Under the pieces are notes generated by a model that was not told where the DNA came from, made no database searches, and worked only from the letters and a program-made list of their open reading frames with translations. This document shows positions 5,860 through 56,112 of a stretch of DNA of 64,000 nt, in pieces (position 1 is the first letter of the stretch; each line of letters begins with the position of its first letter). Source of the stretch: Balneola sp. (lineage in GTDB: Bacteria; Bacteroidota; Rhodothermia; Balneolales; Balneolaceae); the NCBI GenBank assembly GCA_002694685.1, contig NZMW01000010.1:62001-126000 (forward strand), read 5' to 3'. Made by a program: the position numbers and the translations under genes.

Positions 5860-6185
5860 GAGGGGTGAAAGTTGGTCGGGTGATAGTTGATTTAGCTGCT
5901 CAACTTTTCCGGTGTTTGGCTACCTAAAGCCATCAGAGGCTGAGCCTAGCAAACTGGTTCCTTAGCAGAACTCATCTTCATCTGACGACTGTAGCTCGTC
6001 CGATGAATTTACAGGGCTTTCTCCACTGCTTCATTCGTCAGACCGCTCAGGCATTGTCTTCTAATTATCAAACTTCCCGAAGCGGTTGGACGAAGCACAC
6101 TTAGTTCAAGCGTCCGCTTGGACAAGCCTTTTTAGACACAAGCATGCTTAGCTTAAACCAACAGTGCATAAGTGGACACTTGTGC
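5860..6185. repeat. Intergenic palindromic repeat element, copy A
   Basis: Gene-free stretch between ffh and the DUF4398 lipoprotein, packed with hairpins: unit 1 at 5979-6005 (CATCTGACGA / TCGTCCGATG, 7-base loop), unit 2 at 6034-6094 (14-base arms TTCGTCAGACCGCT / AGCGGTTGGACGAA, two mismatches), unit 3 at 6104-6123 (GTTCAAGCG / CGCTTGGAC), and a related hairpin at 6166-6185. The same three units recur in a different order at 7700-7851. A left flank at 5860-5890 resembles the left arm of copy B. No coding sequence is seen here. Confidence 0.8.
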
Positions 6186-6308
6186 TATTTGTGAGAAACC
6201 CTAGGTTGGTTAAACCCCATTACCCCATCCTCCTTCCAATTCTCGGGAACAAATCTATCCCTTCCTTATTTAACTGTTTGAAATCTCTTCAAACAAATAT
6301 CGAAGGTC

Positions 6309-6677
6309 ATGAGAAAGTTAACTCTTATTGTTCCCTTAGCGGTACTTATTAGTGCCTGCGCAAGTACCAAACCCCCAAATGAAAAGCTTACCCAAGTTGA
6401 GGCATCCATTCAGCAAGCCGAACAAGTTGGTGCTGAAAATTATGCTCCGCTTGAAATCCGTGAAGCCCGAAAGAAATTGAACAAGGCTAGAGAGTTGGTC
6501 GGTAAAGAAAAGTATGAGAAAGCAAAACGCTCAGCCGATCGCGCTATGGTGGATGCAGAACTCGCCCAAATGAAATCCTTATCTGAAAAAGCACAAAAAG
6601 CGGTCAGAGAACTCCGGGAAAGTATTCGGGTGCTAAAAGAGGAAATTCAGAATAACATAGACAAAGAGAGAGACTAA
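6309..6677 (+). CDS. DUF4398 lipoprotein
   Basis: A 122-residue envelope protein with a lipoprotein signal peptide (lipobox ISAC, Cys17) followed by an all-helical DUF4398-type domain: a TPR-like pair 'APLEIREARKKLNKARELV' / 'EKYEKAKRSADRAMVDAELA' and a C-terminal coiled coil rich in Arg, Glu and Lys. The family is periplasmic and frequently sits beside OmpA-like proteins, as here: the next gene starts 2 bases after its stop and carries a similar helical region plus an OmpA domain. The pair is probably one transcription unit that links outer membrane and peptidoglycan (inference). Confidence 0.8.
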   Translation: MRKLTLIVPLAVLISACASTKPPNEKLTQVEASIQQAEQVGAENYAPLEIREARKKLNKARELVGKEKYEKAKRSADRAMVDAELAQMKSLSEKAQKAVRELRESIRVLKEEIQNNIDKERD

Positions 6678-6679
6678 CC

Positions 6680-7567
6680 ATGAAATTCTTTTCACTCAAA
6701 ATACCCCTATTAAGTATTGTTGTTACCGCCCTGCTAATTGGTTGCGGTGGACCACCTCAGAATAATCCTCTCCTTATGGAAGCAGAAAACTCATACAACC
6801 AAGCCGAAAATGATTCTCTTGTTGTGTTGAAAGCTCCCGTAGCTTTAAAAGAAGCGGAAGAAGCCCTTGAACAAAGCCAGCAAATTTGGAAAGAGGAAGG
6901 TGAAGACAAAGCCACATTGGTTGAACACTACGCTTACATCGCCCAGCAAAAAACGAAAGTCGCCAGGGAAACCGCAAAATTAAATGCCGCTCAGGATGAA
7001 GTGGAACAAGCAGAAGCCGAGCGTAAGCAAGTACTCATAGAAGCCCGAAAGGCAGAGGCTATTGCAGCAGAGCGCAGGGCGGAAAATGCACTCGAGCAAG
7101 TAAAGAAAGAACGTGCTGAAGCGGAAAAAGCTCGTCAGGAAGCCAGTGAATTAGCCAGTCGCCTTTCAGAAATGGAGGCTCGACAAAGTGAGCGAGGCAT
7201 GGTTCTTACTCTTGGTGATGTACTTTTTGATTTCAACAGCTCGAACCTAAAAGCCGGAGCTAATAAAGTTGTGAATGAGTTGGCGAACTTCCTTAAAGAA
7301 TATCCTCAGCGTTCTATTCAAATTGAAGGATTTACCGATAGTGTTGGGTCAGCCGAGTACAACAAGAATTTATCTCAGCGCAGGGCTGATGCATTACAGG
7401 ACGCCTTGGTAAACGCAGGAATTTCCAGCCGAAGAATTGAAACCATTGGCTATGGAGAAGAATACCCGGTAGCTACAAATATGAATGAAGCCGGCAGACA
7501 ACAAAATCGCCGGGTAGAGGTTATTATATCTAACGAGAATGGAGTAGTTACGCAACGTACGCAATAA
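6680..7567 (+). CDS. OmpA-family peptidoglycan-binding lipoprotein with DUF4398-like helices
   Basis: The 295-residue protein has a lipobox (LIGC, Cys22), helical DUF4398-like repeats at ~30-110, a long Glu/Ala/Arg coiled coil at ~110-175 and an OmpA C-terminal domain at ~178-285 ('GDVLFDFNSSNLK', 'IEGFTDSVGSAEYNKNLSQRRA', 'GYGEEYPVATN', 'NRRVEVII'). OmpA domains bind diaminopimelate in peptidoglycan non-covalently; the lipid anchor and coiled coil would make this a periplasm-spanning tether. It follows the DUF4398 lipoprotein by 2 bases and is ended by a clear terminator. Confidence 0.9.
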   Translation: MKFFSLKIPLLSIVVTALLIGCGGPPQNNPLLMEAENSYNQAENDSLVVLKAPVALKEAEEALEQSQQIWKEEGEDKATLVEHYAYIAQQKTKVARETAKLNAAQDEVEQAEAERKQVLIEARKAEAIAAERRAENALEQVKKERAEAEKARQEASELASRLSEMEARQSERGMVLTLGDVLFDFNSSNLKAGANKVVNELANFLKEYPQRSIQIEGFTDSVGSAEYNKNLSQRRADALQDALVNAGISSRRIETIGYGEEYPVATNMNEAGRQQNRRVEVIISNENGVVTQRTQ

Positions 7568-7587
7568 CTCCATACTCGAAGAGAGAC

Positions 7588-7621
7588 AGGGCGGAAGGTT
7601 GATCACTTTCGCCCTTTTTTT
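7588..7621 (+). terminator. Rho-independent terminator after the OmpA-like gene
   Basis: AGGGCG and CGCCCT arms (with a few extra pairs) around a 15-20 base loop, followed by a run of seven or more T residues, 21 bases after the stop of the OmpA-like lipoprotein. Confidence 0.8.
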
Positions 7622-7630
7622 ATGTTGATG

Positions 7631-7890
7631 AATGAGGGTTGAAAGTTAATAAGGTGACTTGGCCTTGAAACTATCCTCTTGATCTTACCCACCCACCTAG
7701 TTCAAGCGTCCGCTTGGACCAACCAAACTCATCTGACGACTACAGTTCGTCCGATGAATTTTTACGCATCGTATTTTTCATACCCTCTCATTCGTCAGAC
7801 CGCTAAAACATGCTCTCCTGATAAAACAGCTTGCCAAAGCGGTCGGACGAAACTTACTTATGTCACCCGCCTCAACTTTCAACTCTCATT
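7631..7890. repeat. Intergenic palindromic repeat element, copy B
   Basis: A 260-base element bounded by long imperfect inverted arms (7631-7658 and 7862-7890, sharing GAGGGTTGAAAGTT-like and GGTGAC blocks). Inside are the same three hairpins as copy A but with unit 3 moved in front: unit 3 at 7700-7719, unit 1 at 7730-7756, unit 2 at 7791-7804 / 7838-7851. Stem positions are kept while the unit 1 loop appears inverted (CTGTAGC in A, CTACAGT in B). It occupies most of the space upstream of the sigma factor and probably carries or flanks its promoter. Confidence 0.8.
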
Positions 7891-53598: not shown

Positions 53599-54156
53599 AT
53601 GAAGAATACTATTACATTTTTGAAATCATTCGCAACGGATAAAGATGTTGCTTCTATTACGCCATCTTCTCAATACTGTGTGCGTAAGCTTTGCGAGCAT
53701 ATTGATTTCAAGGCCACCAAAACAATTGTAGAATATGGTGGCGGGACCGGGGTATTCACTAAGCATTTCTTAAAGAAAATGAGTCCTGATGCTCAGCTTT
53801 TTGTGTTTGAAACCAACGACAATTTTATAAACACGCTTTCTAAAATTGACGACGACAGACTTACTATTTTCCCTGACAGTGTTGAAAATATAATGTCTTT
53901 GATGCCGGAAGAACTGATTGGCAATGTTGATCATGTAGTTTCCGGTATTCCCTTCTCTTTCTTTGACTGGGATATGAAAATCGACATCCTGAATAAAACT
54001 AAAGAAGTGCTCCACGAGAACGGATCTTTCTTAGCCTATCAAACATCCGGGCATCTAAAAAAGCCGCTTACCGAAGTATTTGATAACTACACGACTGACT
54101 TCTGCTGGAAGAACATCCCGCCGTATTTTATTTATGAGTCGGTGAATGAGCTATAG
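53599..54156 (+). CDS. Class I SAM-dependent methyltransferase (PmtA/rRNA-type)
   Basis: A 185-residue Rossmann methyltransferase with SAM motif I 'IVEYGGGTGVFTKHFL' (~43), 'FVFETNDNF', and a post-IV strand 'DHVVSGIPFSFF'. Sequences of this shape are phospholipid N-methyltransferase-like or KsgA-like; substrate not determined. Its 3' end (encoding 'YFIYESV') is copied as an exact 22-base direct repeat 1.5 kb downstream, where the original codons seem to continue into 'IK' and a stop. The present tail ends 'NEL'. Six bases separate it from uvrB. Confidence 0.78.
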   Translation: MKNTITFLKSFATDKDVASITPSSQYCVRKLCEHIDFKATKTIVEYGGGTGVFTKHFLKKMSPDAQLFVFETNDNFINTLSKIDDDRLTIFPDSVENIMSLMPEELIGNVDHVVSGIPFSFFDWDMKIDILNKTKEVLHENGSFLAYQTSGHLKKPLTEVFDNYTTDFCWKNIPPYFIYESVNEL

Positions 54157-54257
54157 TTCAAAAGTATCTAGATGCTATTCTTTTCATATAATTATTAGTT
54201 CTTGCTTCATTTTTATTAACATAAATAACACCCTTTTAAAGGATTTCATTTAGCTTT

Positions 54258-55448
54258 TTACCATTCCGGGTCTATTTTTGTAAAGATTAAATATGGGTTA
54301 TCATTCTTGTCAATTTCCTTTTCAAAAGCTACCAAAGAAGGGTTTTTTTGTTTTAAGCTAGACCACTCGGATCCCTTCTTTTTCTTATTTGAAATATATT
54401 CTACAAGGGATGTAGATTGTTGAAACCACACCAAAGTATCTCCTTTTATTTGAATCGGCCGTCGCATCATTGGACCTAATCCTATATCATCTTTAAGCTT
54501 AATGTTACTTGTGTGAAGCATTTTGTTTTCTTTATTAGATGCAAACACATAGTTATGATTTCTTTTATATCTATATGTAAAAAATGAAAAATCTTCAGCT
54601 TCATAATAGTTTGATATATTATTAGCGTACTCTTCTAATAGTTTAATTCTCTCTATAACATTTTCTTTCTCTTCAAAAAAACTCTCCGGTAATTCTTTTT
54701 CTCCAAAATCTATTTTTTTGATTTTTTTAAATTTTTCTTTGTCATAGCTATAGATAATATAATCTGATGGGGCTGTAAAAAATACTTTATCATTAAATAC
54801 AGAAAAGTTTGTAGGCAAATTGTAATGGTAATCTATTAGGTCAGGATCAATATCAATACTCTCCTCTCTTATATTAAAATCATTATCTGTTATCAGCATG
54901 TTATGGCTATCATCCATTGAGTTTGTTAAAACATTATTCATAAAGATTAAATAACCACTTTCAATTTTTTTAAATCTACTTAACCGATGTTTGAAAGTTT
55001 TTTCCTCAATGTATTCTCCATTGTTTGAATTATAGTATATAAACTTACTTCCACCGGTATCATATATAATAATTTGATTGTTTTTTAGATCAACATCAAA
55101 ATCGTTGGGACTCATAAATTCTCCTGGTCCTCTACCATAATTTGATATATCAAATAATAATCTCCCCTCTTCATTATATACATACAGTGCTAATGATTGC
55201 TCTGCATCCAATACATATATTTTGTTGTTCTTCAATAAAACTTTCTCTATCTGACCGATATAATTTCCGCCTTCTTCAGATAGCTTTAGATACTTTACAT
55301 TAGATATTATTGAACTTGTATTTACAAATTCAGTTTTTTCAGGATTAATTTCTGTCGCCTCAATTTTTGACCCCTTCTTTTTCTTTTCTGTATCGGAGCA
55401 TCCAAATATTAGGAAAAAAGTTAACAGTGTTAGTATAATTTTGTCCAT
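54258..55448 (-). CDS. 6-bladed beta-propeller lipoprotein
   Basis: A 396-residue lipoprotein (lipobox 'IFGC', Cys17) of the Bacteroidota 6-bladed propeller type: 'ISNVKYLKLSEEGGNYIGQIEKVLLKNNKIYVLD' start, 'LFDISNYGRGPGEFMSPNDFDVD' (the GxGPGEF turn is characteristic), and successive propeller strands to the end. AT-rich codon use and poly-Lys/Asn/Ile composition differ from neighbours, consistent with recent acquisition. Such genes are often near small secreted peptides and surface signalling, as the ORF upstream suggests. Confidence 0.8.
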   Translation of the reverse strand: MDKIILTLLTFFLIFGCSDTEKKKKGSKIEATEINPEKTEFVNTSSIISNVKYLKLSEEGGNYIGQIEKVLLKNNKIYVLDAEQSLALYVYNEEGRLLFDISNYGRGPGEFMSPNDFDVDLKNNQIIIYDTGGSKFIYYNSNNGEYIEEKTFKHRLSRFKKIESGYLIFMNNVLTNSMDDSHNMLITDNDFNIREESIDIDPDLIDYHYNLPTNFSVFNDKVFFTAPSDYIIYSYDKEKFKKIKKIDFGEKELPESFFEEKENVIERIKLLEEYANNISNYYEAEDFSFFTYRYKRNHNYVFASNKENKMLHTSNIKLKDDIGLGPMMRRPIQIKGDTLVWFQQSTSLVEYISNKKKKGSEWSSLKQKNPSLVAFEKEIDKNDNPYLIFTKIDPEW

Positions 55449-55501
55449 AAGATCTACTTTAAAGAGTCAGTCTTTAGATTATGCTTTCTTTCTGATAGGA
55501 C

Positions 55502-55591
55502 CTACCATTCCTCTGGGTCAACAGGCATTTCATCATAGGTGTATTGGTTTTCTGCTTCACATGTACCAGCTCCATATATACACCTAATCAC
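55502..55591 (-). CDS. Tiny Cys-containing peptide ORF (possible truncated propeptide)
   Basis: A 29-codon frame on the same strand and directly upstream of the propeller lipoprotein, starting at a GTG (55591): it encodes a Cys/Gly segment 'RCIYGAGTC' followed by an acidic tail ending 'DEMPVDPEEW'. The two-Cys Gly-rich segment followed by a variable tail resembles C-termini of NVEALA-like small natural product precursors found beside 6-bladed propeller genes in Bacteroidota. Upstream the frame is closed by a stop, so the leader may be lost or frameshifted. No ribosome site was seen. Confidence 0.3.
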   Translation of the reverse strand: MIRCIYGAGTCEAENQYTYDEMPVDPEEW

Positions 55592-55662
55592 GATTTAGCC
55601 TGATTCATACTATAGAACCCCAGTATATTTTATTTATGAGTCGGTGATTAAGTAGGGTTACT

Positions 55663-56112
55663 TTACTCTGGCTTCTTGCCCAGTTTTTTGCATAAAGAAC
55701 CCAGCTGTTCTTTTTCTTTATTACTGAGGCAGCTAAACTCTTCCTTAATTTTCCCGAGGTGCTGTGGGAAAAAGTCTTCAATATATGATCGCCCTTTTTT
55801 TGTTAACGAGATAATTACAGCCCTGCGATCATTGGGGTCTGTTTTCTTTTCAACCATTCCACTCTTCTGAAGGTTATCAATCACCAGCGTGATATTTCCT
55901 CCACTTTTTAACAACTTCTGCCCTAATTCTCTTTGATTAAGAGGACCTAAATGAAGTAAGGCCTCCAGAGTGCCAAACTGACTCACCGTTAGATTTGCTT
56001 CAGAGAGGTGGCGAGACAACCTCCCGTTCATACTTTCGGTGGCACGCATTAACTTAATAAATGCATTCAGGGTTGATTTATCTTCTTCCGATCCTTCGTA
56101 ATGCGTTCCCAT
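55663..56112 (-). CDS. MarR family transcriptional regulator
   Basis: A 149-residue winged-helix regulator: dimer helices, the helix-turn-helix 'NLTVSQFGTLEALLHLGPLNQRELGQKLLKSGGNITLVIDNLQKSG' (~40-88) and wing 'DPNDRRAVIISLTKKGRSYIE' (DxRxxxxxLTxxG signature). MarR proteins are usually repressors released by small phenolic or oxidised ligands; the target is unknown. It follows the xth gene by ~55 bases on the same strand, with the repeat-bounded segment directly downstream. Confidence 0.9.
   Translation of the reverse strand: MGTHYEGSEEDKSTLNAFIKLMRATESMNGRLSRHLSEANLTVSQFGTLEALLHLGPLNQRELGQKLLKSGGNITLVIDNLQKSGMVEKKTDPNDRRAVIISLTKKGRSYIEDFFPQHLGKIKEEFSCLSNKEKEQLGSLCKKLGKKPE

Follow-up and report, generated by a model that had tools for sequence, protein, structure and literature searches.

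An AT-rich insert at the 3' end of a Balneola methyltransferase gene and similar displaced gene ends in the genus

The 22-bp repeat and the methyltransferase gene end

The stretch of Balneola sp. DNA analyzed here, a 64-kb window, contains an exact 22-base sequence twice, once inside the 3' end of a methyltransferase gene and once beyond an AT-rich segment that follows it. This raises the question of how the segment came to lie at the gene end, and why the gene stayed intact. The repeat, TATTTTATTTATGAGTCGGTGA, occurs on the plus strand at 54124-54145 and 55626-55647, and searches of window and genome confirm these positions as given by an earlier, sequence-only reading. Further matches with up to three mismatches are absent from the window (shuffled sequences give 0), and at the same tolerance the 22-mer is confined to these two places in the whole 3.95-Mb genome. 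Including the 3' side, the copies match over 27 nt at 93%. The 22-mer ties for the longest exact repeat in the 64 kb, the other one being a REP-like intergenic repeat. REP-like palindromic repeats, TAGTTCAAGCGTCCGCTTGGAC and TCATTCGTCAGACCGCT, also flank a two-gene lipoprotein/OmpA-type locus (window 5995-7860).

Copy 1 lies within the functional end of an intact gene (53599-54156, plus strand) for a class I SAM-dependent methyltransferase-like protein of 185 aa, which has weak Pfam matches to RrnaAD and Methyltransf_12 and orthologs in 42 other genomes. In the frame of this gene, copy 1 reads YFIYESVNEL* and copy 2 reads YFIYESVIK*. The site is empty in the congeners G001 and G007, where the methyltransferase ends in YFIYESVKD* and about 50 bp separate it from the stop codon of a convergent marR gene. 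The gap between the two genes measures 4 bp in G015, which belongs to a different genus of the family. Therefore, copy 2 represents the native gene end and the arrangement in the window is an insertion. The MarR-family regulator (55663-56112, minus strand) is the immediate neighbor of the methyltransferase in the ancestral, empty arrangement. Judged by reading frame and empty-site comparison, the native last 30 bp of the methyltransferase (55626-55655, plus strand), which include copy 2, were pushed 1.5 kb downstream by the insert, and the 3' end of the gene was replaced. The sequence-only reading had described the second copy as the original gene end displaced by AT-rich DNA and the insertion as one that leaves the gene intact, and both descriptions hold. 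It had also predicted relatives in which the methyltransferase ends in VIK and runs into the marR region. The run into marR was found in G001 and G007, where the ending is VKD. Like copy 1, the methyltransferases of other congeners end in VN..., so that VNEL* could be a natural methyltransferase end. Compared with congeners (about 75% nucleotide identity), the gene has no mosaic identity pattern.

The insert, its cargo and the gap in relatives

The insert between the repeats (54146-55625, 1480 bp) has a GC content of 29.5% compared to 42% in contig and genome, a value equally low in 0.3% of contig windows of the same size. Its only intact gene (54258-55448, minus strand) encodes a six-bladed beta-propeller protein of 396 aa with the domain DUF5128 (PF17170; 141 bits against a gathering cut-off of 22.9, E=5e-41) and a lipoprotein-type N-terminus (LIFGC). 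The closest propeller homologs are 26-29% identical and come from another genus of the family and from a more distant family. Directly upstream of the propeller gene sits the remnant of a small cysteine-containing peptide gene (55502-55591, minus strand, 29 codons), which has lost its 5' part at the insert edge. Complete relatives of it, small genes for secreted cysteine-rich peptides, lie directly upstream of several other DUF5128 propellers (L039, L052, L054, L060, L157, L158). This recurrence suggests a peptide-propeller pair, and by its gene content the insert resembles part of a peptide-propeller operon, one edge of which is imprecise. At L157 (603-1048 and 3719-4170; G375), a peptide-propeller-MauE-like module is bordered on either side by an AraC-type regulator gene, and the 5' parts of these two genes share 94% identity over 199 bp.

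The idea that the propeller genes form a mobile family was rejected, as only one of the 13 DUF5128 genes of the genome, that of the window, has flanking repeats of at least 15 bp. Two propeller copies on contigs C6 and C13 of the same genome (G000; L045 and L046) were likewise discarded as a mobile propeller case because they belong to a larger identical stretch (at least 3366 bp including the propeller gene, 100% identical), which reflects either a large duplication of recent date or an effect of the assembly.

Recombinase-like genes are absent from the insert and from 46.9-59.2 kb, in line with the sequence-only reading, and the insert has neither the terminal inverted repeats nor the transposase ORF of a transposon or insertion sequence. 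Among 92 Balneolaceae genomes, the insert has no DNA relative beyond chance-level matches of 24-46 bp, and its ends are not homologous to any relative. The plasmid collection gave one remote match, the phage collection none, and Rfam none.

In several congeners the gap between methyltransferase and marR holds other DNA, namely a gene for a 1051-aa type IX-secreted protein in G005 and one for a DUF308-like membrane protein in G002, G004, G006 and G008, with an additional DUF5128 propeller, unrelated to that of the window, in G006. None of this other cargo (G002-G006, G008), a search for which the sequence-only reading had suggested, is flanked by repeats. A site-specific hotspot was rejected for this reason, and the gap looks permissive rather than targeted. 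An insertion-tolerant gap between convergent genes explains the differing cargo between species without a target site.

Displaced gene ends elsewhere in the genus

Unique direct-repeat pairs were searched for in about 1.6 Mb, comprising 618 kb and 620 kb from two contigs of this genome and 380 kb of the congener G002. The scan revealed three further recombinase-free inserts of about 1.2-2.1 kb, in which the insert follows an intact gene and a copy of this gene's 3' end lies displaced on the far side. In the same genome, a 51-bp 3' end of an MFS transporter gene is displaced by 1.24 kb (L087, L088; G000:C10:240545-241832), and the insert contains a DUF3078 gene; a second DUF3078 gene elsewhere in the genome is 35% identical. 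Also in this genome, an acyl-CoA dehydrogenase gene has its final 247 bp repeated (92%) 2.3 kb downstream (L141; G000:C4:315133-317702). Here the insert carries a Wzi-like capsule gene, and the displaced end adjoins a polysaccharide chain-length-type gene. In G002, a 3' end of about 120 bp of an EamA transporter gene is displaced (L060, 776-890 and 2956-3276), and the insert encodes a cysteine-containing peptide, a DUF5128 propeller and a 161-aa protein. An IS3-type transposase gene abuts this displaced EamA end.

The paired ends at these three loci differ by 28 synonymous and 15 non-synonymous substitutions. Neutral decay of a dead copy predicts a synonymous share of 26%, compared to the 28 of 43 observed (P=5.7e-8). 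This makes the two ends of each pair orthologous alleles of separate lineages, one having been imported, in keeping with the uptake of homologous DNA.

A protein-level scan recovers these orphan 3' ends and yields one candidate orphan 5' end in G002. Hence, a strict 3' polarity was rejected; displacement of 3' ends is dominant, not exclusive. The repeats at C4:604547 and at G002 C40:228900 were discarded as displaced ends since they are paralogs, and a 27-bp repeat at L063 because it looks like an intergenic repeat.

An 8.4-kb island in the same genome (L078; G000:C10:3838-12410) encodes two type IX-secreted proteins, one of 1324 aa with beta-propeller repeats and a 1022-aa subtilase, and is flanked by a repeat of about 127 bp that corresponds to the 3' tail of a tRNA-Arg gene and its terminator. 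The island contains no integrase, and ARAGORN calls no complete tRNA there. It looks like a classical decayed genomic island.

Origin of the insert

The window insert may be the product of homology-anchored recombination with imported DNA, in the course of which the gene end was displaced; we assign this reading a probability of about 0.5. A foreign AT-rich fragment joined to a methyltransferase 3' end would enter the chromosome, guided on one side by homology within the methyltransferase tail or upstream of it. The other side would be closed by an illegitimate join, unless the fragment was circularized and a single crossover brought it in. The gene would then be completed by the imported tail (VNEL*), while the final 30 bp of the recipient (VIK*) would stay beyond the insert as a scar. 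The insertion with its polarity, the empty site in relatives and the lack of a recombinase are established, and so is the same architecture at three other genes, where the copies are diverged alleles. This recurrence and the variable repeat length point to homology-anchored recombination that leaves the old gene end behind, and we infer, less firmly, that the window event took the same route as the other three loci. The peptide gene cut at the insert edge is expected from an imprecise edge, and upstream of copy 2 there is no alignable homology, as in homology-facilitated illegitimate recombination (HFIR).

Comparable events have been described. In E. coli, a single crossover integrates circularized fragments that bear a gene end, leaving part of the target gene duplicated, and duplications of the lacZ end were observed experimentally (PMC3240628). 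Such single-crossover events and HFIR resemble the window in the insert of 1-2 kb, the lack of a recombinase and the gene end that is duplicated or left behind, whereas the window event is natural and the matchable native end comprises just 22 bp. Rhs C-terminal tips are displaced via circular intermediates (PMC2935791), and modules of the type VI secretion system (T6SS) displace older genes (PMC5361080). In both, as proposed for the window, the gene is completed by an imported 3' end while its former end becomes a downstream orphan; in the window, however, the displaced tail belongs to a housekeeping-type gene and the cargo is an unrelated propeller instead of a new toxin tip.

Several observations weigh against the import. 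The methyltransferase end provides the one homologous side, yet the shared stretch of 22 bp (27 at 93%) is identical and thus carries no allele signal, in a gene that lacks a mosaic pattern. Moreover, 22 bp is short for a RecA-dependent single crossover and fits an att core just as well, or else a long duplication of the target site. A donor carrying the insert was found neither among the 92 family genomes nor in the homolog search. Published homology-facilitated events mostly delete recipient DNA, which also counts against this reading.

It is possible, if doubtful, that the insert is instead a decayed or passive site-specific element similar to a cis-mobilizable element (CIME), in which the 22-mer is the att core, the element supplied the tail, and the integrase acted in trans or was lost. 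Direct repeats resembling attL and attR at a gene 3' end, a gene that stays intact and the absence of integrase and transfer genes agree with this, as does the repeat length, which falls inside the 8-60 bp range given for att sites of tyrosine recombinases (PMC5704250). The genome encodes 11 tyrosine recombinases elsewhere, and the integrase-free island flanked by the tRNA-Arg tail shows that such remnants occur here. In contrast, the 22-mer, for which the sequence-only reading had suggested a search, was found neither in the rest of the genome nor in viral contigs and marks no other insert there. The insert consists of one gene plus a gene truncated at its edge and contains no recombinase remnant; no related element occupies the gap in ten related genomes. 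At the other gene-end scars, the repeats are of very different length and represent diverged alleles rather than fixed att cores. Specific support is thus lacking for a passive cassette moved in trans, as had been proposed. Extended to the family, as a Balneolaceae class of recombinase-free cassettes that mostly carry genes for exported or outer-membrane proteins, sit at gene 3' ends with a replacement tail and use a recombinase in trans, the idea is quite improbable.

A rather unlikely origin is the capture of a foreign fragment, either at a staggered break or through an unknown transposase, the 22 bp being a target-site duplication; NEL* would then be insert sequence read to the first stop codon. 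The 22-mers are identical although congeners differ here synonymously, so that both may stem from one chromosome; the insert ends lack homology to any relative, and it is not improbable that a stop would occur by chance after three codons. However, 22 bp is long for a transposition duplication, terminal inverted repeats are missing, and this origin would leave unexplained why the gene-end copies at the three other loci have diverged. A slight chance falls to an assembly artifact or an unknown cause.

The insertion clearly exemplifies an already known type of recombination scar and indicates no new kind of element. It means that single surface-protein genes can be added beside housekeeping genes without mobile-element machinery, leaving a displaced gene tail behind. 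That such scars recur within one genus and carry diverged alleles provides a simple way to detect such imports.
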